This document shows positions 466 through 35,019 of a stretch of DNA of 64,000 nucleotides, in pieces (positions within the stretch are counted from its first letter, which is position 1; every line of letters begins with the position of its first letter). Source of the DNA: Selaginella tamariscina (taxonomy: Eukaryota > Streptophyta > Lycopodiopsida > Selaginellales > Selaginellaceae); NCBI GenBank assembly GCA_003024785.1, contig PUQB01000415.1:62001-126000 (forward strand), in the 5' to 3' direction. Under the pieces are notes generated by a model. The model did no database searches. It was not told the origin of the DNA and worked only from the letters and a program-made list of their open reading frames with translations. The position numbers and the translations under genes are program-made.

Positions 466-600
466 GAATCCCGACAAAAAGAGGGCTTCTGGGCTTCCGG
501 GCTTGGACCCGGAATATTCTAAAGAATCTACCAGAATATTCTTAGAATATTCCTAAATATTCTTAGAATTTAGAATTTTGGCTCAGTCGGCAATTAACAA
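466..600. repeat. A-end terminal and subterminal region, copy 1
   Basis: The region begins with a 24-bp terminal repeat that runs into tandem GGGCTT-type units. GAATATTC repeats follow at 512-519, 534-541 and 545-552, each fitting the GAAnnTTC pair of a heat-shock element. A half-site of the internal palindrome, AGTCGGCA, lies at 585-592. Confidence 0.75.
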
Positions 601-646
601 CAAAAAATATTTAAAATCATCCATGTTTATACTGTATTATTAAAGT

Positions 647-652
647 TTTATT
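647..652 (-). promoter_or_regulatory. Polyadenylation signal AATAAA of the copy 1 methyltransferase gene
   Basis: AATAAA (minus strand) lies about 30 bases downstream of the stop codon at 683-685. The same hexamer sits at the same distance from the stop in the other two copies. Confidence 0.55.
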
Positions 653-682
653 TCAACACCAAAGAGTACAATTCAACACTTG

Positions 683-3600
683 TCACTTCTTCTTACGATT
701 GAGCAATGCTGCAATTCGTGAACCACCAGTCCTACTAAACGTCGCTATTGGTTGGGTTGGGATTTCCTCTGGCTGGATGTTCTCTTTAATCTTGTTCATA
801 GCAATTCTTCCGAGCTCAGGGTTCTTCTCAGTCCCAACAATGTTTCTCCCTAGCTCGATAGCTGCAAGCATTGAGGACCCCGTACCACTGCCTATATCCC
901 AGATAAGATCACCTGGCTGGGTGAGTCGTTCTATCACGAGCTGCATCAATCGAGTGCTCTTCGGTTGGTAGTCCATCCTGCATGTGAAGATAATGGTAAA
1001 TACTTAATTTGTTGAAATGAAATGCCTACCATGCTTCTTGGAACCGCTCAAGATTATCAACAAGAATTATTGATGACAAACGCAGCGGATTATCGCGCAA
1101 TCCTCTAGATGTATCTTGGAAGACAAGAAGGAGCAGGATGCTCTCCTGTTAAAACATCAAAAATTATTAATGAACTTCATGAATAAAGAAAAAAGTACCT
1201 TCATCTTGTTGCGGTAGCCCCAACCACGCCCTCTGTAGATGTAGTACGTTGCAGCAAGTTGAAGGTCCACCACACTTGCAGCTCGAACAACTTGATCCCA
1301 GGTGTTTGCTGCAGCAAACACAACCAACCAACCATTTGCAGCCATATGCATACCTGCAAACTGGAGTGCTTCATCGAATTTCACTGGATCAAGGTAGAGG
1401 TATGGCGTATCACTCGTTGTATTTCCTGGCAAGGTCCCATTTGGAAGGTCGAAGATCACCAAGTTGAAACCATATTCTCCCGCAATATGCTGGTAGCGAG
1501 TCTGGCTGTCAGCTGTATGGTACCTGGCCACCTGTGTCTGAACTTTTCTATAAGGAACCAGTCTAGCGTCAGGAACCTCCTCTTCCTTCTCATCCGTGAG
1601 CACGGCCTGTTGCATCTCCTCGATGTCATCAATCGCCAAGAAATTATCACCTCGAGCTGTAGCAAGTGAAGGGACGAATGTGACCAAGTCATCCTTGATG
1701 TCCATGGTTCCCTGCGATGGTAGCACTTCAGAATAAATTGAATAAGGCAACTGGATCGCGAGTAGTGGAGGTGCCAACTACTGTATTTGAGGTCTTCTTT
1801 GACTGCTGCACAGGCTGACGCCGCTTTGCCTTGGCCTTTGTCTTCTTAATGAAGTCGACCTCTGCCAGATCCCATGAGATGCATGGGAGATCTTTTGAGT
1901 GTTCATTGTAGAGATCCTTCTCCCATGTTGGTGGTTGCCCAGGTGGATAATCAAGCCAGAACGATATGTTTACACGTTCGAACTCTGTCAGGCCAGATCT
2001 TGTCTTCGACCACATGTGTGGTGCTTCCATGTAATCTGACCAGAATACCATAGTCTGTGTGTGAGGCACCTTTCTCGCTGCGACATACCTATAATGAACA
2101 TATAGTAGTGTCAGAATGTAACAATGTCAAGAAGATCATCCTTACCTCCAAATCATCCTTCTTGCTGTCTCTTCGTGTTCGAGGAACTCTTTCGGCTCTA
2201 TAGAGTAAGTGAACTTCACACACTCATGGAATGGCTGAAACATCACGTTCTTGCATTTTACTCGCACTTCATCGTACCAAGTCGTGAAATCTGTAACCGG
2301 CCTGCTCCACTCGCCATCCTCGATGAGTCCCGTGAGAATCTGTACTGCCTCCTCTCTGATCGCTCACCAATACAAATCGATAGTAAACCACCTTATCCAC
2401 TCCTTATCCTGAACACCCAGCAATCCAAGTGTCTCTTGCTCTCTCTTCAGATCGAGACGTACCAGTTTATTGAAGTACATGATTCTCGTCTCGTTTGGAA
2501 TTCTCGCCCTTGAAAGCGCGTACAGCTTTCCAACCCCATCCATCTGCATTGTTTCCATGTGATTTGGGTCACCTTGTCGAACCACTCTTCACCCAAAGCA
2601 GGATCGATGATGGCTAAGATCTTCATCATGCGCTTGTCATGCTTAATGTAGACCTGTTGTTGCTCCTGGTATTTGTTGCCTTTGGATGCCCTTGCAGCCT
2701 TCTCAAGATCATCCTCAATCTCACTCTGTAATTCACAGACGTAATCAACTAAGTAATATAAGTGTGAGACGTGGTACCTAAAAAAAGATCTTTGCACAGA
2801 TCAAATTCGGAAGTGGATGCCAAGCTTGTTGTCCAGTCGCGCTTTCCTTCCACTTTCTTATGTCATCTCATTCCTTGTCACTGAGCCTGGCCAAGATCTT
2901 CGCTGTGCCCTCCTCAGTGGTGCAACATGTCTTCACAAATAGCAAAAGATGTGGCAGTGGTTTGCACTGCCGTTGTGGAGGAACTGCATATTTGAAAATC
3001 TCGAAGTTAGTTAATCCTATGATCTAGAGGTCACTATGTTTACCTATTAATTTGCTGAAACATTGTCACAAGCTGAAGATTATCCATGACCCCAGCACGG
3101 ATGAAGCCTGAATGCACTCTCACTGCCCACTGATTCTTATCTTCCGTGTCTTCTATGTACAGCTTCTGAAGCACCTTTAGCCTGTGATTACCATCCCAAT
3201 AGATGAACTTCTTCATCGAAAGCATTGGTGCCCATTGTCGGAACATGTTAGACTGAAGCTCCTCCTCAAAAGCCAAATGCTGAGCATACATCGCTTCATC
3301 GCTTCTCAATGCTGCTAGATCTGCATCTGTCATGGGGTCCCCAACTTGAAGGATGAACTGAGTGGTGTTGCGCAAATAACCAACTGCCTTCTTGAAACTC
3401 CTAGTCAAAGATTCCAGATCCGCTGGATTGACTCTCCGCACCTGCTCATTTCCCAGAATTCGGCAAATAGGGACATCCGTGCCTCTCCATATTCTCGGAT
3501 TGTGATCTTCGCGAGAAGACGCACTGCACTCTCCGAATGCATGCTGGCTGCAATGTTGTAAACTTCCTCATTATCTGGCACTTCTGCTTTACCCTTCTTC

Positions 3601-3922
3601 TTCTTCTTAGCAGCCTCTGAATCTCCAGTAGCTTTGCGTCGTCTCTTCTTGTTCTTGGGTTCATCCTCTTCGTCACTCGACAAAGTCACTGTGCATGAGG
3701 CCTGTGTGCCTTCTATCTGCTCCTGTGTATCCTGTGGTAAGACATCATCCTCAACTTCTTCAACAAAGTCTGATTGTTCTTGTTGGGGTTGAACTACATC
3801 CTCTTGCTCTCCTGACCAGTCCTGCTGGCTTGTCTGTTCAACTGAATTGCAGCTCTAGCTTCTGCTTCTCTCTCAGTAGGCTCCTTCATCTTCTTTTCTT
3901 GTAAACGTTTTCAAGAGCGCAT
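683..3922 (-). pseudogene. ParB-like/DNA amino-methyltransferase fusion gene, copy 1, inactivated
   Basis: This is the counterpart of the genes at 13303-16617 and 31482-34793. The start region reads ATG CGC TCT TGA, a stop at codon 4 where the other copies have Ser-Gln. A 79-bp deletion near 3838 removes part of the basic N-terminus and shifts the frame. A one-base loss near 3481 breaks the start of the ParB-like domain. The C-terminal exons are well kept: the methyltransferase part at 1157-1777 and 683-976 still shows DLPNG and WDIGSGTG. At about 1965 this copy reads GTAAAC where copies 2 and 3 read GTAACG. Copy 1 thus keeps the frame at a site broken in both others, which helps reconstruct the gene model. 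Intron positions match the other copies. Confidence 0.8.
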
Positions 3923-4009
3923 CTACAAAAGCAATAAGGTTTAACAAAAAACTGTAATAAATGTTCAAAGATGTTTAATAAAAATTAAAAAAAACATACT
4001 AGCCCTCAC

Positions 4010-4375
4010 AGTCGGTGTGCCGACTGAGAGAGCAGTTGCTGTAAGTCCCAGTCAGCATGCCGACTGGGATTGGCAACAAAGGGAGGCCCAGTCGGCATGC
4101 CGACTGGGCCTGGCAACAAAGGGAGGCCCAGTCGGCATGCCAACTGGGACTGGCAACAAAGGGAGGCCCAGTCTGGGACTGGGATCGAAGCAAGGCCCAG
4201 TCAAAATGCTAGGTGGGACTAGAACAGTCAACCCTAGTCAAAATGCTGACTGGGGTTGGAACAGTCAACCCCGGTCAAAATGTTGACTGGATCTGGAACA
4301 GTCCACCCCAATCAGCCTGCCGACTGGGACGGACAACGAAGTCAGTCCGAGTCGGCAGGCCGACTCGAATTTCTT
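4010..4375. repeat. Palindrome array between the two genes, copy 1
   Basis: About 40-bp units each contain a palindrome with core AGTCGGCATGCCGACT, separated by a nearly constant spacer (CTCCCTTTGTTGCCAGT-like). This copy has about three recognisable units, two with single-base changes, one collapsed unit, and flanking degenerate palindromes with GACTGG half-sites. The array lies between the divergent start codons of the two element genes. Confidence 0.85.
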
Positions 4376-4841
4376 GCAACTGTGAAGAGATGTAAAAAGA
4401 TGAACAGATCATGAGCAGATCATGAAGAAATCAGAAAATACTCACCCCCTCAATGGAAGCCTATTGTGATTAATCCCTGGAGCCACACTTGCTCCACGCT
4501 ATGCCCCCAAATGAGCCCCTGCTCCACGAAAACCTAGCCGCCCTAGCTGCCCTAATTGCAAAACCTTAGCCGCCCTAAATCAATTAAAAACCAACCTAAT
4601 TTCTGTAAACATATTGCATGCATGATCGCCACTTGTACATAGTAAAACTTTTTAATTTACAAAAAACCTACCCAGACGCAGTAAATTAATTTCACTCTTC
4701 TACCCAGACGCACGCAATTAATATTATTTTTAATATTTGTCAATGAAATGATTGCCTCACGACTAACAAACACATTAACCATCGTGTGTAATATGTTTAT
4801 TGTCTTTGAATTTTAACTTTTGTTTGTTCCATTTTTGCTAC
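4376..4841. other. Upstream region of the transposase gene, copy 1
   Basis: This non-coding stretch lies between the array and the transposase start. It contains repeats of a CATGATC-like motif near 4405-4425, short CCGCCCTA-type repeats near 4530-4575 and AT-rich DNA. It probably holds the promoter and 5' leader of the transposase gene, but no single element can be assigned. Confidence 0.4.
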
Positions 4842-7800
4842 ATGGCAAGAATTAGCTACAATGGTGTTGACAAGGACTTCCCTGCAGATGAAGATGGTAT
4901 TGCATTTGTCTTTGAAACAGATCTCAGGTCTGCATTTGACATTCCACCTTGGCAATCTTTTAAAGTGTTGCATTTGATGTCTGTTGTTGGTGGAGATGCT
5001 GCAAATGTTGAGGTAGAACCAGAAGGGGCAAGAGCTAGCAGTTTTGTGTATTACACACTTCTTCCTTCCAAAAGACCGCTATTCCGATTGGAGACAACAA
5101 ATCGGGACAATTCTATGGTAACAATACTTCGCAATAGTCAGAGATGTAGGATTGGGAAGCAATTGGTGGTCTCGTCATCGATTCAGCAAGTTGCTGAGGT
5201 CCCAGAAGATTGCAACGGAAATGTGATTTACGAGTTGCCAGCACACGAAACAATGAAGGACAAGTACAAAGGGATGAATAGGAAGGATGGGTGTGATTAC
5301 TGGACTCAACGCTGCACAACACATTGGAATGTTCCAGCTCGTGTTAGTCGCAGTTCATGTATTGGCCACATGAAATGCGTAAAGGAAACATGTCCGTTCA
5401 TCAGCTTCAGTAAGAAAGCAAATGACTGCCAATTTAAGGGCACCATTGATAAAGTCCAGTTATCTTCAGATGGTAGAGTGCTTGGAATGAAGTGTGTGCA
5501 TTGCAACAATGAGCCCCTTCTAGTGCAGACATGCTCCGTTGTTACATATTACATAATTCCAGATGATATCACATGCACGAGGCTTTTCATCCATCTTGGA
5601 GAACATCAACACCCACGTAGACCACCCGAATCCATGGTCTCTAAAGACAGAGCTAAGGAGACAATCAACAAAGCAGTCGCTGCAACCCCAAGAACTAATC
5701 AACGTGTCATAGAGTTTCAAGCAGCACGCAATATAATTTTGGAAAAACTGGTAACAGATTCTGGAGATGTATCATACGACAAGGTTCTGTCAGATCTACT
5801 ACCACTCACGAATCACCATCGGTAAGCAAAAAAATTATTATTTCCTTTTGGAGATGCTTAACCTTTCCACTGTAGAACAAGAGAATGGATATCTCAGGCT
5901 AGAACAAGAGACACTCGTTTCAAAGAAGGTTACGAAGGACTTCTGCAGTTAAAGAAGAAGCTATCAATCCCATTCATACATGTTATCCACATACCCGGAA
6001 TGGACCTCAACGGAGCTGAAGAGCAGCCTTTAATCTTCAAAATGACGGTTGCCAGCCCAGGATCCGGAATAGACTACATTAGAAGGTGTCAATCTAGAGG
6101 TGATCTCGAACAGCAGTGGGTGGTGCTAGACCACACATATCGTATTGATGATTGGTGTACACTGGGAATACATCTCTATGATCCATTGTAAGTATTAACA
6201 TATCTATGTTTTAAAATACTTACTAATATAATGCACTTATGTTTGTGTAGTTTAAGGTCGATGGTGACACTTGCTTATGGTGACATGATCAGGGAGGATA
6301 GTGTGGCTGTGATCAAATTTTTGAACACTATGCTTCAAGTGTGCAGCAAGCAAGGACTTCATAATGTGAACTTTGCGGGGTTCATGTCAGATGAGTCAGG
6401 TGCAATTTGGTTAGCATTGCGTCAAGTTTTCAACAATGGGTCAAAGATGAGAGGAAGAGAAAGGAGTTGTTTGTTCCATTACATGCAGTCAGTGCGTCAA
6501 GTTACAAAGAAGTGGATACTTGAGGAACACAAGGAGGAGCACATGAACCTTGCACGCTCATGGCATGCAGCACTAACCAACCAAGATAAGTTGGAACGAC
6601 AAGTAATGTTGGAGTCATTTTGGGAAGGCAGGTCCAGTAACGTTAGCGCTTTGCAAACATGGCTTCATGGTGGGCAAGACATGAAGATCATATTTCCATG
6701 ACAGAGATAATTGACTTGACAGAAGATGGTGTTGCGAATGTGCCTACCACTAACAACTCCGAAGTTGTTCATGCAAGAGCACGAAGAGCAAGGCTGAAGA
6801 AGCGTGTTCCTTTGTTGGAGGCAACAATGTTAGATTTAACAGATGCAGTTTTCCAAAGTGCAAAGGTAAAGGCATCATTTGAAGGGAGATATTCAGGCAC
6901 AGGTCCTTCCATGGAAACTCTTCTGAAACGTGCACAGCAGAAACTTTCAGCGGGAAAATTAGTGTCTCCAACAACTTTTGCAAATCTTGTTAGTGATGAA
7001 GAGCATCTTGCAAGTCCAGAGTTTGCCTCTACAACAAATGTTCGTGTTCGAACCGTTCGTCAACCGTCAACTGGGGACCATGGGATTAATGCACTTCGTA
7101 CACATAGACATGACACACAATATGCAGAACAAGTCATCCCAAATGCACGCAGGAAAAAACTCAAGTTCCAAGATGTCAATGTCACTGAAAGGAGACGTTG
7201 ATGACTCAGTGGGCCATCAGACGCATTGGGGAGGCAAGTCAGGTGAAATGTCTAGGTCTCACTCAGGACGGTAACAACAAGTGTGGCAGACCCATAGGAT
7301 ATCCACATCATGTACCGGCACCAGGATTTCACGGTAGACGGCAATATACAAATGCATTTGGGAACATTGAGTTCACTCATCAGATGTTATGGTTCTGCCC
7401 ACGCGATTCTTGTTGCTTCAGACGACCATATGCAGGGATTCCTCCTGAGAGTATTCCAGAAGTTCCAGAGGTTTGGCCAGTTCAAAAAGGAACAAACTTG
7501 AATGCAAATGAGGTTGAAGCTCTTCTGAAAGCAGGATTCAAGTTGGAGGGATTTGAAGAAATGGTAGACGACAGTAGTAGCCGAATGGATCGAACACCAT
7601 CACCACCAAGAGGAGAGGGAGCACATAGAGTACCAACATACCATGGACGGAGTGTGCGAACACCAACAAGAATGTCCAAGGAACATGAGAAACATTACAA
7701 CCAGGCAAAGATTCTTCAAGGTCGGATCAACAACGTGGAGGTGGTTCAAAGAGGGAAGACTGAGGCCTTCATTGTCTCTGCAGGCATGCAATCTGCTAAT

Positions 7801-8011
7801 GTAATAATTTCTACTGTTCCGTCATGCACTTGTGCAACTTTTCAGAAAGCCAAGAACTGGAGCCCCTGCAACACATGTATTTTGTGTACACTCATGTTCT
7901 TGGATTGGACCCAACGATTACTTACTTTTACAGAGGCGGACCCTTACTCCAGCAGAAGTGCATCGGTTATTGGTTGATTGCAAGCGCAATGTCGAACCTG
8001 CGACCTTTTAA
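4842..8011 (+). pseudogene. MULE transposase, copy 1, frameshifted
   Basis: Exon 1 (4842-5821) is intact and starts at the ATG giving MARISYNGVDKDF. Exon 2 (5876-6187) and exon 3 (6251-8011) follow after short GT-AG introns. Exon 1 has a Cys/His zinc-binding region, with Cys pairs followed by HLGEHQHP, like the WRKY/GCM/FLYWCH-type fingers found at the N-terminus of MULE transposases. The catalytic core spans exons 2-3, with Asp in LDHTYRID and in GFMSDE and a following CLFHY. Compared with the other copies, exon 3 has frameshifts near 6662, near 7195 and in the SWIM finger near 7868. The protein family is clear and this copy is non-functional as read. Confidence 0.8.
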
Positions 8012-8208
8012 GTTCAGTCGGTATAGTAAAGTCTAGTCGGCAAATAATTAGCGTTTTTCACTTGTTGGTCGGCATTTATATTGAAAGTTAAAGATAATCT
8101 ACTTGGCAGAATATTTTAGAATATTCCCGTTTATTTGACAGAATATTCCTGGATATTCGGGAATATGCGAAAAGCCCGTTGTACGAAGCTCGGTTTTTGC
8201 TAATCCTC
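8012..8208. repeat. B-end subterminal and terminal region, copy 1
   Basis: Three half-site-like copies of the array palindrome occur at 8016-8023 (AGTCGGTA), 8035-8042 (AGTCGGCA) and 8067-8074 (GGTCGGCA). GAATATTC-type repeats follow at about 8108-8165, then the terminal repeat at 8185-8208. Confidence 0.7.
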
Positions 8209-8217
8209 TTAAAGGCG
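8209..8217. repeat. Right target-site duplication of MULE copy 1 (TTAAAGGCG)
   Basis: Identical to 457-465. Confidence 0.9.
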
Positions 8218-8910: not shown

Positions 8911-8919
8911 TTTCTATTA
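8911..8919. repeat. Left target-site duplication of MULE copy 2 (TTTCTATTA)
   Basis: TTTCTATTA occurs here and at 16833-16841, directly flanking copy 2. Confidence 0.9.
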
Positions 8920-9111
8920 GAGGATTGGCAAAAACTGGGCTTCGTACAACGGGCTTTTCGCATATTCCCGAATATCTAGGAATTATTCTGTCAAATAAAG
9001 GGAATATTCTAGAATATCTGCCAAGTAGATTATCTTTTAACTTTCATTATAAAATGCCGACCAACAAGTGAAAAACGCTAATTATTTGCCAACTAGACTT
9101 TACTATACCGA
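8920..9111. repeat. B-end terminal and subterminal region, copy 2
   Basis: The terminal repeat is followed by two GGGCTT units. A three-part heat-shock-element match, GAATATTCTAGAAT, lies at 9002-9015. Palindrome half-sites (TGCCGACC, TGCCAACT, CCGACT) lie at about 9055-9113. Confidence 0.7.
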
Positions 9112-12100
9112 CTAACTAAAAAGTCGCAGGTTCGACATTGCGCTTGCAACCAACCAATAACCGATGCACTTTTGCTGGAGTAAGGGTCCGCCTCTGTAAG
9201 AAGTAATAATCGTTGGGTCCAATCCAAGAACATGAGTGTACACAAAATACATGTGTTGGCAGGGGCTCCAGTTCTTGGCTTTCTGAAAAGTTGCACAAGT
9301 GCATGACGGAACAGCAGAAATTGTTACCTTAGCAGATTGCATGCCTGCAGAGACAATGAAGGCCTCAGTCTTCCCTCTTTGAACCACCTCCACGTTGTTG
9401 ATCCGACCTTGAAGAATCTTTGCCTGGTTGTAATGTTTCTCATGTTCCTTGGACATTCTTGTTGGTGTTCGCACACTCCGTCCATGGTATGTTGGTACTC
9501 TATGTGCTCCCTCTCCTCTTGGTGGTGATGGTGTTCGATCCATTCGGCTACTACTGTCGTCTACCATTTCTTCAAATCCCTCCAACTTGAATCCTGCTTT
9601 CAGAAGAGCTTCAACCTCATTTGCATTCAAGTTTGTTCCTTTTTGAACTGGCCAAACCTCTGGAACTTCTGGAATACTCTCAGGAGGAATCCCTGCATAT
9701 GGTCGTCTGAAGCAACAAGAATCGCGTGGGCAGAACCATAGCATCTGATGAGTGAACTCAATGTTCCCAAATGCATTTGTATATTGCCGTCTACCGTGAA
9801 ATCCTGGTGCCGGTACACGATGTGGATATCCTATGGGTCTGCCACACTTGCTGTTACCGTCCTGAGTGAGACCTAGACATTTCACCTGACTTGCCTCCCC
9901 AATGCGTCTGATGGCCCACTGAGTCATCAACGTCTCTCTTTCAGTGACATTGACATCTTGAAACTTGAGTTTTTTCCTGCGTGCATTTGGGATGACTTGT
10001 TCTGCATATTGTGTGTCATGTCTATGTGTACGAAGTGCATCAATCCCATGGTCCCCAGTTGACGGTTGACGAACGGTTCGAACACGAACATTTGTTGTAG
10101 AGGCAAACTCTGGACTTGCAAGATGCTCTTCATCACTAACAAGATTTGCAAAAGTTGTTGGAGACACTGATTTTCCCGCTGAAAGTTTCTGCTGTGCACG
10201 TTTCAGAAGAGTTTCCATGGAAGGACCTGTGCCTGAATATCTCCCTTCAAATGATGCCTTGACCTTTGCACTTTGGAAAACAGCATCTGTTAAATCTAAC
10301 ATTGTTGCCTCCAACAAAGGAACACGCTTCGTCAGCCTTGCTCTTCGTGCTCTTGCATGAACAACTTCGGAGTTGTTAGTGGTAGGCACATTCGCAACAC
10401 CATCTTCTGTCAAGTCAATTATCTCTGTCATGGAAATATGATCTTCATGTCTTGCCCACCATGACAGCCATGTTTGCAAAGCGCTAACGTTACTGGACCT
10501 GCCTTCCCAAAATGACTCCAACATTACTCGTCGTTCCAACTTATCTTGGTTGGTTAGTGCTGCAGGCCATGAGCGTGCAAGGTTCATGTGCTCCTCCCTG
10601 TGTTCCTCAAGTATCCACTTCTTTGTAACTTGACGCACTGACTGCATGTAATGGAACAAACAACTCCTTTCTCTTCCTCTCATCTTTGACCCATTGTTGA
10701 AAACTTGACGCAATGCTAACCAAATTGCACCTGACTCATCTGACATGAACCCCGCAAAGTTCACATTATGAAGTCCTTGCTTGCTGCACACTTGAAGCAT
10801 AGTGTTCAAAAATTTGATCACCGCCACACTATCCTCCCTGATCATGTCACCATAAGCAAGTGTCACCATCGACCTTAAACTACACAAACATAAGTGCATT
10901 ATATTAGTAAGTATTTTAAAACATAGATATGTTAATACTTACAATGGATCATAGAGATGTATTCCCAGTGTACACCAATCATCAATACGATATGTGTGGT
11001 CTAGCACCACCCACTGCTGTTCGAGATCACCTCCAGATTGACACCTTCTAATGTAGTCTATTCCGGATCCTGGGCCGGCAACGTCATTTTGAAGATTAAA
11101 GGCTGCTCTTCAGCTCCGTTGAGGTCCATTCCGGGTATGTGGATAACATGTATGAATGGGATTGATAGCTTCTTCTTTAACTGCAGAAGTCCTTCGTAAC
11201 CTTCTTTGAAACGAGTGTCTCTTGTTCTAGCCTGAGATATCCATTCTCTTGTTCTACATTGGAAAGGTTAAGCATCTCCAAAAGGAAATAATAATTTTTT
11301 TGCTTACCGGCGGTGATTTGTGAGTGGTAGTAGATCTGACAGAACCTTGTCGTATGATACATCTCCAGAATCTGTTACCAGTTTTTCCAAAATTATATTG
11401 CGTGCTGCTTGAAACTCTATGACACGTTGATTAGTTCTTGGGGTTGCAGCGACTGCTTTGTTGATTGTCTCCTTAGCTCTGTCTTTAGAGACCATGGATT
11501 CGGGTGGTCTACGTGGGTGTTGATGTTCTCCAAGATGGATGAAAAGCCTCGTGCATGTGATATCATCTGGAATTATGTAATATGCAACAACGGAGCATGT
11601 CTGCACTAGAAGGGGCTCATTGTTGCAATGCACACACTTCATTCCAAGCACTCTACCATCTGAAGATAACTGGACTTTATCAATGGTGCCCTTAAATTGG
11701 CAGTCATTTGCTTTCTTACTGAAGCTGATGAACGGACATGTTTCCTTTACGCATTTCATGTGGCCAATACATGAACTGCGACTAACACGAGCTGGAACAT
11801 TCCAATGTGTTGTGCAGCGTTGAGTCCAGTAATCACACCCATCCTTCCTATTCATCCCTTTGTACTTGTCCTTCATTGTTTCGTGTGCTGGCAACTCGTA
11901 AATCACATTTCCGTTGCAATCTTCTGGGACCTCAGCAACTTGCTGAATCGATGACGAGACCACCAGTTGCTTCCCAATCCTACATCTCTGACTATTGCGA
12001 AGTATTGTTACCATAGAATTGTCCCGATCTGTTGTCTCCAACCGGAATAGCGGTCCTTTGGAAGGAAGAAGTGTGTAATACACAAAACTGCTAGCTCTTG

Positions 12101-12287
12101 CCCCTTCTGGTTCTACCTCAACATTCGCAGCATCTCCACCAACAACAGACATCAAATGCAGCACTTTAAAAGATTGCCAAGGTGGAATGTCAAATGCAGA
12201 CCTGAGATCTGTTTCAAAGACAAATGCAATACCATCTTCATCTGCAGGGAAGTCCTTGTCAACACCATTGTAGCTGATTCTTGCCAT
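9112..12287 (-). CDS. MULE transposase with N-terminal zinc finger and C-terminal SWIM finger, copy 2
   Basis: Three exons: 12287-11308, 11253-10943 and 10879-9112. The ATG at 12287 (MARISYNGVDKDF) is chosen because the in-frame extension upstream has no ATG. The consensus protein is about 1,020 residues. Residues ~150-280 hold a Cys/His zinc-binding region ending in HLGEHQHP. The DDE core shows LDHTYRID (exon 2), GFMSDESGAIW and CLFHY (exon 3), the usual MULE arrangement. Near the C-terminus, CTC followed by CQH fits the SWIM pattern CxCx(n)CxH. The protein should bind the element ends and catalyse cut-and-paste transposition in the nucleus. Exon 2 lacks one base near 11080 compared with copy 3, and the last codons differ, so this copy is probably inactive as read. 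It is divergent from the methyltransferase gene across the array. Confidence 0.85.
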
Positions 12288-12774
12288 GTAGCAAAAATGG
12301 AACAAACAAAAGTTAAAATTCAAAGACAATGAACATATTACACACGATGGTTAATGTGTTTGTTAGTCGTGAGGCAATCATTTCATTGACAAATATTAAA
12401 AATAATATTAATTGCGTGCGTCTGGGTAGAAGAGTGAAATTAATTTACTGCTCTGGGTAGGTTTTTTGTAAATTAAAAAGTTTTACTATGTACAAGTGGC
12501 GATCATGCATGCAATATGTTTACAGAAATTAGGTTGGTTTTTAATTGATTTAGGGCGGCTAGGGTTTTGCAATTAGGGCGGCTAGGAGCGAGGGCGGCTA
12601 GGTTTTCGTGGAGCAGCGGCGCATTTGGGGGCATAGCGTGGAGCAAGTGTGGCTCCAGGGATTAATCACAATAGGCTTCCATTGAGGGGGTGAGTATTTT
12701 CTGATTTCTTCATGATCTGCTCATGATCTTTTCATGATCTGTTCATCTTTTTACATCTCTTCACAGTTGCAAGA
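12288..12774. other. Transposase upstream region, copy 2
   Basis: Non-coding. It includes tandem GGGCGGCTAGG-like repeats at about 12553-12602 and three CATGATCT repeats at about 12710-12740. A possible intron lies at about 12690-12767 (donor-like GTGAGT, acceptor-like TCTTCACAG) in the leader of the plus-strand gene. Confidence 0.4.
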
Positions 12775-13232
12775 AATCCGAGTCGGCCTGCCGACTCGGA
12801 CTGACTTCGTTGTCCGTCCCAGTCGGCAGGCCGACTGGGGTGGACTGTTCCAGATCCAGTCAACATTTTGACCGGGGTTGACTGTTCCAGCCCCAGTCAG
12901 CATTTTGACTAGGGTTGACTGTTCTAGTCCCACCTAGCATTTTGACTGGGCCTTGTTCGTTCCCAGTCCCAGTCGGCATGCCGACTGGGCCTCCCTTTGT
13001 TGCCAGTCCCAGTCGGCATGCCGACTGGGCTCCCTTTGTTGCCAGGCCCAGTCGGCATGCCGACTGGGACTCCCTTTGATGCCAGTCCCAGTCGGCATGC
13101 CGACTGGGCTCCCTTTGTGCCAGTCCCAGTCGGCATGCCGACTGGGACTCCCTTTGTGCCAGGCCCAGTCGGCATGCCGACTGGGACTTACAGCAACTGC
13201 TCTCTCAGTCGGCACGCCGACTGTGAGGGCTA
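12775..13232. repeat. Palindrome array, copy 2 (six perfect units)
   Basis: Six perfect 22-bp palindromes start at 12968, 13008, 13047, 13087, 13125 and 13164, a 38-40 bp period. Each has the core AGTCGGCATGCCGACT flanked by CCC and GGG. Variant palindromes with CTG or ACG centres flank them at about 12780-12840 and 13206-13228, and degenerate TTTGACTGG units fill 12850-12955. Spacers are nearly identical, so this is a satellite-type array. It lies just upstream of the ParB-like gene, and copy number differs between element copies. Confidence 0.9.
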
Positions 13233-13302
13233 GTATGTTTTTTTAATTTTTCATCTTTGAACATTTATTACAGTTTTTTGTTAAACCTTATTGCTTTTGT
13301 AG

Positions 13303-16300: not shown

Positions 16301-16617
16301 TACCATTATCTTCACATGCAGGATGGACTACCAACCGAAGAGCACTCGATTGATGCAGCTCGTGATAGAACGACTCACCCGGCCAGGTGATCTTATCTGG
16401 GATATAGGCAGTGGTACGGGGTCCTCAATGCTTGCAGCTATCGAGCTGGGGAGAAACATTGGTTGGGACTGAGAAGAACCCTGAGCTCGGGAGAATTGCT
16501 ATGAACAGGATTAAAGAGAACATCCAGCCAGAGGAAATCCCAACCCAACCAATAGCGACGTCAAGTAGGACTGGTGGTTCACGAATTGCAGCATTGCTCA
16601 ATCGTAAGAAGAAGTGA
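13303..16617 (+). CDS. ParB-like domain / DNA amino-methyltransferase fusion protein, copy 2
   Basis: Six exons: 13303-14261, 14322-14529, 14582-15161, 15219-16106, 16158-16270 and 16322-16617; about 1,015 codons. The ATG directly follows an intron-like acceptor (TTGCTTTTGTAG). Residues 1-140 are charged, with a bipartite basic nuclear signal at ~116-138. Residues ~178-320 resemble the ParB/sulfiredoxin fold, with a conserved-looking PICRILG start and WDGNHRLKVL at 269-278. A helical middle region is unrecognised. The C-terminal third has FDLPNG at the motif IV position, NGWLVVFAAANTW, then PKSTRLMQLVIERL and DLIWDIGSGTG, the beta-class order of N6-adenine/N4-cytosine methyltransferases. DLPN replaces the usual DPPY. 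Frame-breaking indels occur near 15033 (shared with no other copy), 15338 (shared with copy 3), 16216, 16267 and 16462. The role is inferred: DNA modification targeted by the ParB-like part. Confidence 0.82.
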
Positions 16618-16647
16618 CAAGTGTTGAATTGTACTCTTTGGTGTTGA

Positions 16648-16653
16648 AATAAA
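16648..16653 (+). promoter_or_regulatory. Polyadenylation signal AATAAA of the copy 2 methyltransferase gene
   Basis: AATAAA lies about 30 bases past the stop at 16617. The position is conserved in all three copies. Confidence 0.55.
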
Positions 16654-16689
16654 ACTTTAATAATACAGTATAAACATGGCTATGATTAA

Positions 16690-27186: not shown

Positions 27187-27376
27187 GAGGATTAGCAAAA
27201 ACCGGGCTTCGTACAACGGGCTTTTCGCATATTCCCGAATATCCAGGAATATTCTATCAAATAAACGGGAAATATTCTAGAATCTGCCAAGTAGATTATC
27301 TTTAACTTTCAATATAAATGCCGACCAACAAGTGAAAAACGCTAATTATTTGCCGACTAGACTTTACTATACCGAC
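27187..27376. repeat. B-end terminal and subterminal region, copy 3
   Basis: The terminal repeat starts GAGGATTAGCAAAAACC and runs into GGGCTT units. GAATATTC-type repeats and palindrome half-sites (TGCCGACC, TGCCGACT) follow, as in copies 1 and 2. Confidence 0.7.
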
Positions 27377-30300
27377 TTAAAAGGTCGCAGGTTCGACATT
27401 GCGCTTGCAATCAACCAATAACCGATGCACTTCTGCTGGAGTAAGGGTCCGCCTCTGTAAGAAGTAAGTAATCGTTGGGTCCAATCCAAGAACATGAGTG
27501 TACACAAAATACATGTGTTGGCAGGGGCTCCAGTTCTTGGCTTTCTGAAAAGTTGCACAAGTGCATGACGGAACAGTAGAAATTGTTACCTTAGCAGATT
27601 GCATGCCTGCAGAGACAATGAAGGCCTCAGTCTTCCCTCTTTGAACCACCTCCACGTTGTTGATCCGACCTTGAAGAATCTTTGCCTGGTTGTAATGTTT
27701 CTCATGTTCCTTGGACATTCTTGTTGGTGTTCGCACACTCCGTCCATGGTATGTTGGTACTCTATGTGCTCCCTCTCCTCTTGGTGGTGATGGTGTTCGA
27801 TCCATTCGGCTACTACTGTCGTCTACCATTTCTTCAAATCCCTCCAACTTGAATCCTGCTTTCAGAAGAGCTTCAACCTCATTTGCATTCAAGTTTGTTC
27901 CTTTTTGAACTGGCCAAACCTCTGGAACTTCTGGAATACTCTCAGGAGGAATCCCTGCATATGGTCGTCTGAAGCAACAAGAATCGCGTGGGCAGAACCA
28001 TAACATCTGATGAGTGAACTCAATGTTCCCAAATGCATTTGTATATTGCCGTCTACCGTGAAATCCTGGTGCCGGTACACGATGTGGATATCCTATGGGT
28101 CTGCCACACTTGCTGTTACCGTCCTGAGTGAGACCTAGACATTTCACCTGACTTGCCTCCCCAATGCGTCTGATGGCCCACTGAGTCATCAACGTCTCTC
28201 TTTCAGTGACATTGACATCTTGAAACTTGAGTTTTTTCCTGCGTGCATTTGGGATGACTTGTTCTGCATATTGTGTGTCATGTCTATGTGTACGAAGTGC
28301 ATCAATCCCATGGTCCCCAGTTGACGGTTGACGAACGGTTCGAACACGAACATTTGTTGTAGAGGCAAACTCTGGACTTGCAAGATGCTCTTCATCACTA
28401 ACAAGATTTGCAAAAGTTGTTGGAGACACTGATTTTCCCGCTGAAAGTTTCTGCTGTGCACGTTTCAGAAGAGTTTCCATGGAAGGACCTGTGCCTGAAT
28501 ATCTCCCTTCAAATGATGCCTTGACCTTTGCACTTTGGAAAACAGCATCTGTTAAATCTAACATTGTTGCCTCCAACAAAGGAACACGCTTCGTCAGCCT
28601 TGCTCTTCGTGCTCTTGCATGAACAACTTCGGAGTTGTTAGTGGTAGGCACATTCGCAACACCATCTTCTGTCAAGTCAATTATCTCTGTCATGGAAATA
28701 TGATCTTCATGTCTTGCCCACCATGACAGCCATGTTTGCAAAGCGCTAACGTTACTGGACCTGCCTTCCCAAAATGACTCCAACATTACTCGTCGTTCCA
28801 ACTTATCTTGGTTGGTTAGTGCTGCAGGCCATGAGCGTGCAAGGTTCATGTGCTCCTCCCTGTGTTCCTCAAGTATCCACTTCTTTGTAACTTGACGCAC
28901 TGACTGCATGTAATGGAACAAACAACTCCTTTCTCTTCCTTCATCTTTGACCCATTGTTGAAAACTTGACGCAATGCTAACCAAATTGCACCTGACTCAT
29001 CTGACATGAACCCCGCAAAGTTCACATTATGAAGTCCTTGCTTGCTGCACACTTGAAGCATAGTGTTCAAAAATTTGATCACCGCCACACTATCCTCCCT
29101 GATCATGTCACCATAAGCAAGTGTCACCATCGACCTTAAACTACACAAACATAAGTGCATTATATTAGTAAGTATTTTAAAACATAGATATGTTAATACT
29201 TACAATGGATCATAGAGATGTATTCCCAGTGTACACCAATCATCAATACGATATGTGTGGTCTAGCACCACCCACTGCTGTTCGAGATCACCTCCAGATT
29301 GACACCTTCTAATGTAGTCTATTCCGGATCCTGGGCCGGCAACCGTCATTTTGAAGATTAAAGGCTGCTCTTCAGCTCCGTTGAGGTCCATTCCGGGTAT
29401 GTGGATAACATGTATGAATGGGATTGATAGCTTCTTCTTTAACTGCAGAAGTCCTTCGTAACCTTCTTTGAAACGAGTGTCTCTTGTTCTAGCCTGAGAT
29501 ATCCATTCTCTTGTTCTACAGTGGAAAGGTTAAGCATCTCCAAAAGGAAATAATAATTTTTTTGCTTACCGGCGGTGATTTGTGAGTGGTAGTAGATCTG
29601 ACAGAACCTTGTCGTATGATACATCTCCAGAATCTGTTACCAGTTTTTCCAAAATTATATTGCGTGCTGCTTGAAACTCTATGACACGTTGATTAGTTCT
29701 TGGGGTTGCAGCGACTGCTTTGTTGATTGTCTCCTTAGCTCTGTCTTTAGAGACCATGGATTCGGGTGGTCTACGTGGGTGTTGATGTTCTCCAAGATGG
29801 ATGAAAAGCCTCGTGCATGTGATATCATCTGGAATTATGTAATATGCAACAACGGAGCATGTCTGCACTAGAAGGGGCTCATTGTTGCAATGCACACACT
29901 TCATTCCAAGCACTCTACCATCTGAAGATAACTGGACTTTATCAATGGTGCCCTTAAATTGGCAGTCATTTGCTTTCTTACTGAAGCTGATGAACGGACA
30001 TGTTTCCTTTACGCATTTCATGTGGCCAATACATGAACTGCGACTAACACGAGCTGGAACATTCCAATGTGTTGTGCAGCGTTGAGTCCAGTAATCACAC
30101 CCATCCTTCCTATTCATCCCTTTGTACTTGTCCTTCATTGTTTCGTGTGCTGGCAACTCGTAAATCACATTTCCGTTGCAATCTTCTGGGACCTCAGCAA
30201 CTTGCTGAATCGATGACGAGACCACCAGTTGCTTCCCAATCCTACATCTCTGACTATTGCGAAGTATTGTTACCATAGAATTGTCCCGATCTGTTGTCTC

Positions 30301-30549
30301 CAACCGGAATAGTGGTCCTTTGGAAGGAAGAAGTGTGTAATACACAAAACTGCTAGCTCTTGCCCCTTCTGGTTCTACCTCAACATTCGCAGCATCTCCA
30401 CCAACAACAGACATCAAATGCAGCACTTTAAAAGATTGCCAAGGTGGAATGTCAAATGCAGACCTGAGATCTGTTTCAAAGACAAATGCAATACCATCTT
30501 CATCTGCAGGGAAGTCCTTGTCAACACCATTGTAGCTGATTCTTGCCAT
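27377..30549 (-). CDS. MULE transposase with SWIM finger, copy 3
   Basis: Exons: 30549-29570, 29515-29204 and 29140-27377. Exon 1 (zinc-binding region) and exon 2 (first catalytic Asp in LDHTYRID; 312 bases, full length) are intact. Exon 3 lacks two bases near 28939 compared with copy 2. This turns the segment after NNGSKM out of frame for the rest of the core. Downstream of that point the frame is open to the stop, with the SWIM pattern CTC...CQH complete. The function is as for copy 2: DDE transposase acting on the element termini. Because the exon 2 defect of copy 2 is absent here and the exon 3 defect here is absent there, the two copies together define an intact consensus. Confidence 0.85.
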
Positions 30550-31030
30550 GTAGCAAAAATGGAACAAACAAAAGTTAAAATTCAAAGACAATGAACATAT
30601 TACACACGATGGTTAATGTGTTTGTTAGTCGTGAGGCAATCATTTCATTGACAAATATTAAAAATAATATTAATTGCGTGCGTCTGGGTAGAAGAGTGAA
30701 ATTAATTTACTGCGTCTGGGTAGGTTTTTTGTAAATTAAAAAGTTTTACTATGTACAAGTGGCGATCATGCATGCAATATGTTTACAGAAATTAGGTTGG
30801 TTTTTAATTGATTTAGGGCGGCTAGGGTTTTGCAATTAGGGCGGCTAGGGCAGCTAGGCGGCTAGGTTTTCGTGGAGCAGGGGCTCATTTGGGGGCATAG
30901 CGTGGAGCAAGTGTGGCTCCAGGGATTAATCACAATAGGCTTCCATTGAGGGGGTGAGTATTTTCTGATTTCTTCATGATCTGCTCATGATCTTTCATGA
31001 TCTGTTCATCTTTTTACATCTCTTCACAGT
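30550..31030. other. Transposase upstream region, copy 3
   Basis: Equivalent to 12288-12774, with GGGCGGCTAGG-like repeats near 30815-30870 and CATGATC repeats near 30975-31005. No gene is seen. Confidence 0.4.
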
Positions 31031-31034
31031 TGCA

Positions 31035-31405
31035 AGAAATCCGAGTCGGCCTGCCGACTCGGACTGACTTCGTTGTCCGTCCCAGTCGGCAGGCCGACTG
31101 GGGTGGACTGTTCCAGATCCAGTCAACATTTTGACCGGGTTGACTGTTCCAGCCCCAGTCAGCATTTTGACTAGGGTTGACTGTTCTAGTCCCACCTAGC
31201 ATTTTGACTGGGCCTTGCTTCGTTCCCAGTCCCAGACTGGGCCTCCCTTTGTTGCCAGTCCCAGTCGGCATGCCGACTGGGCCTCCCTTTGTTGCCAGGC
31301 CCAGTCGGCATGCCGACTGGGACTCCCTTTGTGCCAGTCCCAGTCGGCATGCCGACTGGGACTTACAGCAACTGCTCTCTCAGTCGGCACGCCGACTGTG
31401 AGGGC
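31035..31405. repeat. Palindrome array, copy 3 (three perfect units)
   Basis: Perfect 22-bp palindromes start at 31260, 31300 and 31339. A collapsed unit lies near 31230 and variant palindromes at both array ends. Copy 2 has six perfect units, so unit number has changed since the copies separated. Confidence 0.88.
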
Positions 31406-31481
31406 TAGTATGTTTTTTTATTTTTTTAAACATCTTTGAACATTTATTACAGTTTTTTGTTAAACCTTATTGCTTTTGTAG

Positions 31482-34400
31482 ATGCGCTCTTCACAACGTT
31501 TACAAGAAAAGAAGATGAAGGAGCCTACTGAGAGAGAAGCAGAAGCTAGAGCTGCAATTCAGAGAGGGCGTCGGGGTCGTGGGAGAGGAAGTAGGAAGCT
31601 GGCTGTGGTTCAGGAACAAGGACCTTCAAGTGATGCTCCAGTTGAACAGGCAAGCCAGCAGGACTGGTCAGGAGAGCAAGAGGATGTAGTTCAACCCCAA
31701 CAAGAACAATCAGACTTTGTTGAAGAAGTTGAGGATGATGTCTTACCACAGGAGACACAGGAGCAGACAGAAGGCACACAAGCCTCATGCGCAGTGACTT
31801 TGTCGAGTGACGAAGAGGATGAACCCAAGAACAAGAAGAGACGACGCAAAGCTGCTGGAGATTCAGAGGCTGCTAAGAAGAAGAAGAAGGGTAAAGCAGA
31901 AGTGCCAGATAATGAGGAAGTTTACAACATTGCAGCCAGCATGCATTCGGAGAGTGCAGTGCGTCTTCTCGCGAAGATCACAATCCGAGAATATGGAGAG
32001 GCACCGGATGTCCCTATTTGCCGAATTCTGGGAAATGAGCAGGTGCGGAGAGTCAATCCAGCGGATCTGGAATCTTTGACTAGGAGTTTCAAGAAGGCAG
32101 TTGGTTATTTGCGCAACACCACTCAGTTCATCCTTCAAGTTGGGGACCCCATGACAGATGCAGATCTGGCAGCATTGAGAAGCGATGAAGCGATGTATGC
32201 TCAGCATTTGGCTTTTGAGGAGGAGCTTCAGTCTGACATGTTCCGGCAATGGGCACCAATGCTTTCGATGAAGAAGTTCATCTGTTGGGATGGTAATCAC
32301 AGGCTAAAGGTGCTTCAGAAGCTGTACATAGAAGACACGGAAGATAAGAATCAGTGGGCAGTGAGAGTGCGTTCAGGCTTCATCCGTGCTGGGGTCATGG
32401 ATAATCTTCAGCTTGTGACAATGTTTCAGCAAATTAATAGGTAAACATAGTGACCTCTAGATCATAGGATTAACTAACTTCGAGATTTTCAAATATGCAG
32501 TTCCTCCGCAACGGCAGTGCAAACCACACTGCCACATCTTCTGCTATCTGTGAAGACATGTTGCACCAGTGAGGAGGGCACAGCGAAGATCTTGGCCAGG
32601 CTCAGTGACAAGGAACGAGATGACATAAGAAAGTGGAAGGAAAGCGCACTGGACAACAAGCTTGGCATCCACTTCCGAATTTGATCTGTGCAAAGATTTT
32701 TTTGAGGTACCACGTCTCACACTTATATTACTTAGTTGATTACGTCTGTGAATTACAGAGTGAGATTGAGGATGATCTTGAGAAGGCTGCAAGGGCATCC
32801 AAAGGCAACAAATACCAGGAGCAACAACAGGTCTACATTAAGCATGACAAGCGCATGATGAAGATCTTAGCCATCATCGATCCTGCATTGGGTGAAGAGT
32901 GGTTCGACAAGGTGACCCAAATCACATGGAAACAATGCAGATGGATGGGGTTGGAAAAGCTGTACGCGCTTTCAAGGGCGAGAATTCCAAACGAGACGAG
33001 AATCATGTACTTCAATAAACTGGTACGTCTCGATCTGAAGAGAGAGCAAGAGACACTTGGATTGCCGGGTGTTCAGGATAAGGAGTGGATAAGGTGGTTT
33101 ATATCGATTTGTATTGGCGCATCAGAGAGGAGGCAGTCAGATTCTCACGGGACTCATCGAGGATGGCGAGTGGACAGGCCGGTTACAGATTTCACGACTT
33201 GGTACGATGAAGTGCGGGTAAAATGCAAGAACGTGATGTTCCAGCCATTCCATGAGTGTGTGAAGTTCACTTACTCCATAGAGCCGAAAGAGTTCCTCGA
33301 ACACGAAGAGACAGCAAGAAGGATGATTTGGAGGTAAGGATGATCTTCTTGACATTGTTACATTCTGACACTACTATATGTTCATTACAGGTATGTCGCA
33401 GCGAGAAAGGTGCCTCACACACAGACTATGGTATTCTGGTCAGATTACATGGAAGCACCACACATGTGGTCGAAGACAAGATCTGGCCTGACAGAGTTCG
33501 AACGTGTAACGTACCGTTCTGGCTTGATTATCCACCTGGGCAACCACCAACATGGGAGAAGGATCTCTACAATGAACACTCAAAAGATCTCCCATGCATC
33601 TCATGGGATCCGGCAGAGGTCGACTTCATTAAGAAGACAAAGGCCAAGGCAAAGCGGCGTCAGCCTGTGCAGCAGTCAAAGAAGACCTCAGATACAGTAG
33701 CTGGCACCTCCACTACTCGCGATCCAGCTGCCTTATTCAATTTATCTGAAGTGCTACCATCGCAGGGAACCATGGACATCAAGGATGACTTGGTCACATT
33801 CGTCCCTTCACTTGCTACAACTCGAGGTGATAATTTCTTGGCGATTGATGACATCGAGGAGATGCAACAGGCCGTGCTCACGGATGAGAAGGAAGAGGAG
33901 GTTCCTGACGCTAGACTGGTTCCTTATAGAAAAGTTCAGACACAGGTGGCCAGGTACCATACAGCTGACAGCCAGACTCGCTACCAGCATATTGCGGGAG
34001 AATATGGTTTCAACTTGGTGATCTTCGACCTTCCAAATGGGACCTTGCCAGGAAATACAACGAGTGATACGCCATACCTCTACCTTGATCCAGTGAAGTT
34101 CGATGAAGCACTCCAGTTTGCAGGTATGCATATGGCTGCAAATGGTTGGTTGGTTGTGTTTGCTGCAGCAAACACCTGGGATCAAGTTGTCCGAGCTGCA
34201 AGTGTGGTGGACCTTCAACTTGCTGCAACGTACTACATCTACAGAGGGCGTGGTTGGGGCTACCGCAACAAGATGAAGGTACTTTTTTCTTTATTCATGA
34301 AGTTCATTAATGATTTTTGATGTTTTAACAGGAGAGCATCCTGCTCCTTCTTGTCTTCCAAGATGCATCTAGAGGATTGCGCGATAATCCGCTGCGTTTG

Positions 34401-34793
34401 TCATCAACAATTCTTGTTGATAATCCTGAGCGGTTCCAAGAACCATGGTAGGCATTTCATTTCAACAATTTAAGTATTTACCATTATCTTCACATGCAGG
34501 ATGGACTACCAACCGAAGAGCACTCGATTGATGCAGCTCGTGATAGAACGACTCACCCGGCCAGGTGATCTTATCTGGGATATAGGCAGTGGTACGGGGT
34601 CCTCAATGCTTGCAGCTATCGAGCTGGGGAGAAACATTGTTGGGACTGAGAAGAACCCTGAGCTCGGGAGAATTGCTATGAACAGGATTAAAGAGAACAT
34701 CCAGCCAGAGGAAATCCCAACCCAACAATAGCGACGTCAAGTAGGACTGGTGGTTCACGAATTGCAGCATTGCTCAATCGTAAGAAGAAGTGA
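31482..34793 (+). CDS. ParB-like domain / DNA amino-methyltransferase fusion protein, copy 3
   Basis: Six exons: 31482-32440, 32501-32706, 32759-33333, 33391-34278, 34332-34447 and 34500-34793. Exon 1 has the same 320-codon open segment as copy 2, with the basic nuclear signal and the ParB-like region with WDGNHRLKVL. The C-terminal methyltransferase part keeps DLPNG, NGWLVVFAAANTW, DLIWDIGSGTG and GTEKN. Copy 3 corrects the copy 2 errors in exons 5 and 6 but has its own. One base is missing in exon 2 near 32648, several in exon 3 near 33101-33174, and one near 34728 cuts the last ~20 residues. The one-base difference near 33510 is shared with copy 2. The middle region (exons 2-4) has no recognised domain. 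It is divergent from the transposase, with the palindrome array between. Confidence 0.82.
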
Positions 34794-34823
34794 CAAGTGT
34801 TGAATTGTACTCTTTGGTGTTGA

Positions 34824-34829
34824 AATAAA
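34824..34829 (+). promoter_or_regulatory. Polyadenylation signal AATAAA of the copy 3 methyltransferase gene
   Basis: Same position relative to the stop codon as in the other copies. Confidence 0.55.
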
Positions 34830-34869
34830 ACTTTAATAATACAGTATAAACATGGCTATGATTTAAATA

Positions 34870-35019
34870 TTTTTTGTTGTTAATTGCCGACTGAGCCAAA
34901 ATCCTAAATTCTAAGAATATTTAGGAATATTCTAAGAATATTCTGGTAGATTCTTTAGAATATTCCGGGTCCAAGCCCGGAAGCCCGGAAGCCCAGAAGC
35001 CCTCTTTTTGTCGGGACTC
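34870..35019. repeat. A-end subterminal and terminal region, copy 3
   Basis: The half-site TGCCGACT lies near 34886. GAATATTC repeats follow at about 34915-34965. GGGCTT-type units (one more than in copy 1) run into the terminal repeat ending GTCGGGACTC at 35019. Confidence 0.7.

Follow-up and report, generated by a model that had tools for sequence, protein, structure and literature searches.

A Mutator-Like Element Family of Selaginella tamariscina with a Divergent Methyltransferase Gene and an Array of Candidate Protein-Binding Palindromes

The window analysed here, a whole stretch of 64,000 nucleotides, holds three copies of an element that is best explained as an autonomous two-gene family of Mutator-like elements (MULEs), made up of a transposase and a divergently oriented accessory gene. 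The accessory protein, presumably nuclear, is best explained as having a basic tail, a region with a ParB-like motif, a long middle, and a putative beta-class N6/N4 methyltransferase domain. An array of 22-bp palindromes between the two genes is a new observation of this analysis, and the palindromes may be candidate binding sites of one element protein.

Element Copies and Gene Models

The copies, 7.7–7.9 kb in length, and a fourth terminal match are located as follows:

466..8208, minus strand: element copy A, with target site duplication (TSD) TTAAAGGCG at 457-465 and 8209-8217
8920..16832, plus strand: element copy B, with TSD TTTCTATTA flanking each end
27187..35019, plus strand: element copy C, with TSD CAAATGCAC vs. 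CAATGCAC, which differ by one base (CAATGCAC has one base fewer)
36591..36618, plus strand: 28 bp that match the right terminus alone, adjoining another repeat

The three full copies with 9-bp duplications, one of them with a one-base difference, and common ends that had been described in the original prediction were verified for both bounds and TSDs. As assembled, none of the three copies is intact. Pairwise identity ranges from 98.4 to 99.5% (A–B 98.37%, A–C 98.65%, B–C 99.54%), copy A being the most diverged, and the 28-bp stretch is likely to be the remnant of a fourth copy. The ends are short, imperfect, and inverted, with 16 of 24 bases alike by direct count, unlike the long terminal inverted repeats of classical MULEs. 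A single segmental duplication was rejected as the origin of the copies because the TSDs differ among all three, and a retrotransposon was rejected because no reverse transcriptase was found by Pfam in either protein, the TSDs are 9 bp long, and the ends are inverted rather than direct.

Since the frame of the second gene was not open in a strict majority consensus, a frame-guided consensus of the three copies was used, which gives two divergent and clean spliced proteins, a transposase of 1018 aa in three exons and an accessory protein of 1015 aa in six exons. In this consensus, the reading of copy A was taken in accessory exon 4, where copies B and C have a common frame-breaking difference, that of copy C in accessory exon 5, and that of copy B in three-way ties. 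All seven introns of the two genes are sequence predictions and have GT-AG borders.

The Transposase

4842..8011, plus strand: transposase gene of copy A, its start derived from the open reading frame
9112..12287, minus strand: transposase gene of copy B, its 3' limit approximate and its frame broken near the end
27377..30549, minus strand: transposase gene of copy C (consensus D412-D478-E602, CxxH 504, SWIM 957)

MULE transposases have a DDE triad with a CxxH motif between the second D and the E, and MULE TSDs are 8–11 bp long. The TSDs of all three copies, at 9 bp, are inside this range, and residues picked by eye give a spacing of D412-65-D478-123-E602 with CxxH at 504, between the second D and the E. 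When residues 100–620 were searched against a set of 5.8 billion proteins (E up to 10), one relative, P0001, was recovered at E 7.6e-19 with 34% query coverage; its second D, CxxH, and E align with those of the transposase, the first D being beyond its reach. The SWIM finger (PF04434) scores 19.7 bits (cut-off 19.6; E 6.1e-4) when the C-terminus is searched alone and is under the cut-off in the whole transposase (14.5 bits) and in P0001 (17.7 bits). Neither PF10551 nor any other MULE-family Pfam model matched the whole transposase or its DDE region up to E 10. The N-terminal region is cysteine-rich, with a GEHQHP motif. The assignment of a MULE transposase to each copy is upheld by the DDE triad, the CxxH motif, the SWIM finger, and the 9-bp TSDs, without a PF10551 match.

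The Accessory Protein

683..3922, minus strand: methyltransferase gene of copy A, with three stop-making substitutions and, in its basic N-terminal part, a 79-bp gap
13303..16617, plus strand: the same gene in copy B
31482..34793, plus strand: the same gene in copy C, with six exons in the consensus model
34027..34041, plus strand: motif IV of copy C, DLPNG codons (canonical DPPY), identical at 1436-1450 in copy A and 15855-15869 in copy B
34579..34599, plus strand: motif I of copy C, the SAM-binding DIGSGTG
32289..32306, plus strand: ParB-like DGNHRL block of copy C (consensus aa 270–275), found by eye without a profile match, its coordinates counted from the start of exon 1

The C-terminal part of the protein matches PF01555 (N6/N4 methyltransferase) at E 7.1e-9 and phrog_67 at E 6.5e-12, the Pfam match covering only the SAM-binding half (residues 923–978), and motif IV (aa 796) precedes motif I (aa 945), as in the beta class. 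The expected beta-class-order amino-methyltransferase is thereby borne out. When a blastp search was restricted to eight plasmid and phage methyltransferases, picked as matches from the plasmid and phage searches, all eight aligned to this domain with E-values no higher than 5e-10. The catalytic motif IV of N6/N4 methyltransferases is (D/N/S)PP(Y/F/W). This motif is absent from all three copies, which have DLPN in its place, and the seven of the eight relatives that are in the alignment (vir524 is not) all have Y at position 4. Catalysis is therefore uncertain, and the enzymatic form of the roles suggested in the original prediction (marking of element DNA, protection from silencing, or control of excision) is weakened. 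Motif I is DIGSGTG in all three copies vs. DPFAGSG in a Curtobacterium relative.

The original prediction had described a fusion of a basic nuclear-localisation region, a ParB-like domain, and a methyltransferase, of which the basic, NLS-like stretches (recognized by eye) and the methyltransferase stand, and the ParB-like domain is a plausible resemblance by eye. In profile searches with the consensus, the methyltransferase was recovered, and no ParB-family match was found in Pfam, PHROGs, or NCBIfam. Alignment with hhalign to a generic ParB profile gave 0.1% over five columns, which is not above the shuffled controls (as high as 1.0% in the 59 of 60 shuffles that returned a value) and compares with 0.04–0.54% for nine other segments. 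Eleven of 400 shuffles and none of 68 other windows attained the ParB block score, and the first block scored highest at a position other than the one chosen by eye. As a query on its own, the ParB region found one phage match at E 7 and, in the PDB, one unrelated chain at E 0.31; a single-sequence AlphaFold model, with a pLDDT of 40.6, was too poor to lend ParB support. The resemblance plausibly extends, by eye, to the level of the DGNHRL motif only, and a long insertion ahead of this block may explain the lack of a ParB profile alignment.

No homologue of residues 160–1015 (E up to 1), nor of a two-domain chimera of the accessory protein (E up to 10), appeared in the best 8000 candidates scored in each search of the 5.8-billion protein set, and none was found in viral contigs. 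Among phages (327 records) and plasmids (1496 records), the best 20 of 327 and the best 20 of 1496 match only the methyltransferase part.

Palindrome Array and GCCGAC Sites

4007..4368, unstranded: palindrome array between the divergent genes of copy A, six sites of the 22-bp family
12778..13225, unstranded: palindrome array of copy B, nine sites, core CCCAGTCGGCATGCCGACTGGG
31041..31400, unstranded: palindrome array of copy C, six sites
27320..27357, plus strand: left terminal non-coding DNA of copy C, two GCCGAC half-sites; in copy A at 8036-8073, and in copy B one, at 9056-9061
34886..34891, plus strand: right terminal non-coding DNA of copy C, one GCCGAC half-site; in copy A at 586-591 and in copy B at 16709-16714

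GCCGAC occurs 11, 20, and 15 times in copies A, B, and C, respectively, and a single time in the rest of the window, about 40.5 kb; it is absent from the genes and introns of all three and present three, two, and three times in their terminal non-coding DNA. At least three occurrences in the 418 bp of terminal DNA of copy C were reached in none of 20,000 first-order Markov simulations, a figure to be read with the facts that the hexamer was picked after the array was seen and that the three copies are not independent. Taken singly, the ends of copy B have one site each, with P 0.05 on the left (350 bp) and P 0.03 on the right (220 bp).

Decay of Copy A

In copy A, the oldest of the three, C-to-T changes affect 32 of 688 CHG, 19 of 455 CG, and 18 of 2309 CHH sites (CHG vs. 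CHH, p 4.7e-10), and this decay at CG and CHG fits plant-type silencing and a plant or green algal host. Of its private changes in the accessory gene, 27 are nonsynonymous, 13 are synonymous, and 3 create stops (about 2383 nonsynonymous and 659 synonymous sites), and strong purifying selection on this gene between the copies finds no support in a test that few changes and the C-to-T bias make weak. Since copy A carries the gene and yet shows silencing-type decay, any protection that the gene provides would not be lasting.

Comparison with Known Systems

A MULE with a ParB-N6/N4 methyltransferase had been thought new; as a claim of novelty this goes too far, since a 2025 paper describes, for Sola1-1_Ec32 of Ectocarpus, a gene for an 1104-aa ParB-like and N4/N6 methyltransferase protein that runs on the other strand from the transposase, and similar proteins from green and red algal transposons, citing Iyer 2011 and Petroll 2025 (PMC12477816). 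No report of a MULE that carries such a gene was found in the literature searched, whose coverage missed key cited works. The two elements, likened by description, are both DNA transposons with an opposite-strand protein of about 1000–1100 aa, an N4/N6 methyltransferase, and a ParB-like region, here at motif level; however, the brown algal element belongs to the Sola1 superfamily and is 21.5 kb long, and the available part of PMC12477816 mentions no palindrome array, which the MULE has. The divergent position of the accessory gene and its methyltransferase agree with the description of the algal genes in PMC12477816.

VANDAL elements are a MuDR family (PMC12730594) and, like the present family, are MULEs with an accessory gene, VANC, whose motif lies in copy-variable, non-coding tandem repeats that include the terminal regions (PMC5735166); here, such repeats are a candidate target. 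In contrast, the available part of PMC5735166 mentions no methyltransferase domain for VANC, and the motif of the Selaginella family is a GCCGAC-cored palindrome, with anti-silencing only proposed. A ParB domain followed by a methyltransferase, the order proposed here, occurs in prokaryotic fusions such as Bce_0392 (PMC5512222) and the phage proteins of loci L009-L011; the N-terminal parts of these phage proteins hit Spo0J with E-values of 8.3e-10 or lower, and their methyltransferase is annotated. Unlike those phage proteins, which have 422–431 aa and a recognisable ParB, the MULE protein has no ParB profile match, a long added middle, and DLPN as motif IV. DNA methyltransferases are also carried in algae or other eukaryotes by DIRS elements, with Dam-like methylases, and by the Klebsormidium Gypsy-Dnmt3 (PMC5890265), but these are retrotransposons with Dam-like or cytosine-C5 enzymes, whereas the fungal DNA transposons with TET/JBP (PMC12730594) share the presence of a DNA-modifying enzyme but belong to other superfamilies and carry a dioxygenase instead of a methyltransferase.

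Possible Mechanisms

By analogy with VANC, the accessory protein is best read as a putative element-specific factor that would bind GCCGAC sites. One of the element's proteins, most likely this one, could occupy the palindromes of the promoter that the two genes share, along with the half-sites close to either end, and thereby alter how the element is methylated or packaged in chromatin; in this way, host CG/CHG cytosine methylation could be countered and/or transcription and excision timed. Element anatomy, homology to methyltransferases, the array and its shared motif, and the decay trace are observations; we infer the identity of the binding protein, methylation by the accessory protein, and the anti-silencing outcome, and we give an even chance to an autonomous MULE whose accessory protein acts in this way. 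The stronger version, in which a ParB-like/methyltransferase protein, a parS-like array, and end sites would form an epigenetic system of the element's own that evades CG/CHG silencing through 6mA/4mC self-marking, is considered unlikely.

Other DNA transposons with subterminal repeats are bound there by the transposase. Binding of GCCGAC by the transposase, with the array as part of a transposase-controlled promoter and subterminal region and the methyltransferase acting elsewhere or nowhere, is unlikely; it accords with the occurrence of sites outside the array, in the left and right terminal regions, and with the cysteine-rich, GEHQHP-containing N-terminal region, but the strongest cluster (6–9 palindromes) is in the divergent promoter and the ends have only one or two half-sites each. 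The substitutions in motifs IV and I, found in every copy, and the restriction of the Pfam match to the SAM-binding half would be consistent with a catalytically dead domain; the protein could then be a pure sequence-specific DNA-binding factor for anti-silencing or regulation, VANC-like in action and not in descent. Nevertheless, the SAM-binding GxG motif and the motif order are retained, and DLPN could be private to the local lineage because the three copies have a recent common ancestor; this reading is regarded as unlikely.

Gene capture is reportedly common in MULEs (PMC13317346, PMC8903248), and the private changes of copy A give no clear sign of constraint, as would be expected of a Pack-MULE-style passenger, a captured host or bacterial-derived gene useless to the element. 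However, the frame-guided consensus keeps all 1015 codons open through six exons, its splice sites and the neighbouring transposase being intact, and the same kind of gene lies opposite the transposase in the Sola1 superfamily (PMC12477816), which makes a mere passenger improbable. If MULEs, Sola1, and the red and green algal transposons all carry such genes, different superfamilies have acquired the same bacterial-type module, which would suggest that the element truly profits from it.

Implications

With respect to the reading of the accessory protein as a VANC-like binding factor, the MULE case adds to the anti-silencing idea a concrete candidate target, formed by the array and the end sites, and CG/CHG-type decay on one copy, which make this idea directly testable. 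If true, a self-marking MULE would represent a convergent counterpart of VANC with a bacterial-type base-modifying enzyme.

Element Copies and Their Divergence

Three full copies of one MULE-type transposon family with flanking duplications occur in the window, as the original prediction had stated:

466-8208, reverse orientation: element copy A, flanked by TTAAAGGCG on each side
8920-16832: element copy B, flanked by TTTCTATTA on each side
27187-35019: element copy C, flanked by CAAATGCAC and CAATGCAC

The two ends read GAGGATTAGCAAAAAC... and GAGTCCCGACAAAAAG...; 16 of their first 24 bases agree by manual count. Pairwise identity reaches 98.37% (A-B), 98.65% (A-C) and 99.54% (B-C). The family is regarded as real, of MULE type and recently multiplied, and its accessory gene is of methyltransferase type. 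The element DNA and both its proteins have no other match in the window besides a 28-bp piece at 36591-36618, which matches the right end only (96% identical), lies directly before another repeat family and is likely the remnant of a fourth copy or insertion. As assembled, none of the three copies is intact. Private indels and private substitutions number 18 and 96 in A, 18 and 27 in B, and 16 and 5 in C, and this surplus of indels in copy C suggests residual long-read assembly error, not decay. Between copies B and C, ORFs are present at 17662-21330, possibly a broken host gene; among three scanned, one matches leucine-rich repeats below threshold (E 0.13), and the other two have no match.

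The Transposase and the Divergent Gene

The three-copy consensus yields two full-length spliced genes in which all predicted introns are GT-AG, the second gene requiring choices, since a plain majority does not leave the frame open: the same frame-breaking difference occurs in exon 4 of both B and C, whereas copy A reads through. The transposase (1018 aa, 3 exons) carries D412, D478 and E602, together with a CxxH (504) and a SWIM finger (957). With the C-terminus alone as query the finger scores 19.7 bits, for a cut-off of 19.6, and with the whole protein 14.5 bits. The Pfam MULE transposase profile gives no hit, even with E up to 10. A large protein-collection search with residues 100-620 yielded a single relative, P0001 (E 7.6e-19; 34% of the query covered), which retains D2, the CxxH motif, E and a C-terminus resembling a SWIM finger.

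The product of the divergent gene (1015 aa, 6 exons) opens with basic stretches, followed by a region in which a DGNHRL block sits at residue 270; its long middle part gives no accepted match, and a methyltransferase domain comes last. For METHYLTRANSFERASE, PF01555 matches residues 923-978 (E 7.1e-9), phrog_67 also matches (6.5e-12), and PDB chain matches include MboIIA (1g60; 8e-4). When the protein is aligned with seven relatives from plasmids and phages, motif IV (aa 796) precedes motif I (DIGSGTG, aa 945), in agreement with the amino-methyltransferase proposed, and copies A, B and C encode both motifs with the same codons. Nevertheless, catalysis by this predicted domain is uncertain because motif IV reads DLPN, while the fourth residue is Y in all seven relatives (DPPY, DIPY or DLPY), a departure that calls for caution on methyltransferase function. 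A perfect 20-bp palindrome, GTGTTTGCTGCAGCAAACAC, lies within exon 4 of this gene (15984-16003 in copy B, with equivalents in the other two).

Of the fusion originally proposed, the basic stretches and the methyltransferase stand, and the ParB part is not confirmed. ParB-family profiles in Pfam, PHROGs and NCBIfam do not match the divergent protein, and a profile built from nine phage ParB domains and Spo0J reaches a probability of 0.1% over 5 columns, against up to 1.0% for shuffles of the same region. A block score is attained by 11 of 400 shuffles and by none of 68 other windows of both proteins. Structure prediction lends the ParB claim no support either, since AlphaFold, run without an alignment, gives a pLDDT of 40.6. 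"ParB-like" is a suggestion at the level of motifs.

Methylation-Type Decay of Copy A

In copy A, 70 of the 96 private substitutions are C>T or G>A; split by context, C>T occurs at 32/688 CHG, 19/455 CG and 18/2309 CHH sites (CHG vs CHH, p 4.7e-10; CG vs CHH, p 8.8e-7). Comparison of B with C reveals no CHG or CG excess of C/T differences. The bias in copy A fits deamination after plant-type methylation at CG and CHG sites, and agrees with a green host, such as a streptophyte, without proving it. A second repeat family at 36617-63350, made up of several blocks in direct and inverted orientation whose longest matches are about 79-95% alike, displays a weaker, unpolarised C/T excess at CHG and CG in all three pairs compared.

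The Palindrome Array and Comparable Transposons

The start codons of both genes are 1015 bp apart in B and 932 bp in C, the copies measured, and the intergenic region contains a family of 22-bp palindromes with the core CCCAGTCGGCATGCCGACTGGG. When up to two mismatched arm pairs are allowed, A, B and C have 6, 9 and 6 members, with 1, 6 and 3 exact copies of the core; in one member, intact in B and C, symmetry is preserved by paired changes (CCGAGTCGGC...GCCGACTCGG). Copy A contains 11 instances of the hexamer GCCGAC, copy B 20 and copy C 15, against a single one in the ~40.5 kb outside them, a pattern that, given the recent common ancestor of the copies, is one observation seen three times. 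Beyond the array, the hexamer is confined to non-coding DNA near the two ends (left 2/1/2, right 1/1/1 in A/B/C) and is absent from genes and introns in all three. At least three sites in the 418 terminal bases of copy C arose in none of 20,000 first-order Markov simulations, for a hexamer selected only after the array had been seen; the ends of copy B, taken singly, have one site each and give only P 0.05 and 0.03.

The concept of the original prediction is already known: PMC12477816 describes a ParB-like/N4-N6 methyltransferase gene on the strand opposite a Sola1 transposase in Ectocarpus. Other papers describe adenine methylases of DIRS elements and Gypsy-Dnmt3 elements of charophytes (PMC5890265), transposons bearing TET genes, VANDAL elements and SET genes in MuDR (PMC12730594), and bacterial ParB-methylases (PMC5512222). 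Searches of the open PMC library turned up no MULE with a ParB-like/methyltransferase gene, and a MULE case in Iyer 2011 or Petroll 2025 is possible. The most useful additions here are the palindrome array and its counterparts at the ends, the methylation-type decay of copy A, and the caution over motif IV and the ParB claim. PMC5735166 reports that VANC, the anti-silencing protein of VANDAL elements, targets repeats in non-coding DNA that differ between related elements, a layout that the GCCGAC palindromes resemble. In the present family, element-specific DNA binding may affect silencing or transposition.
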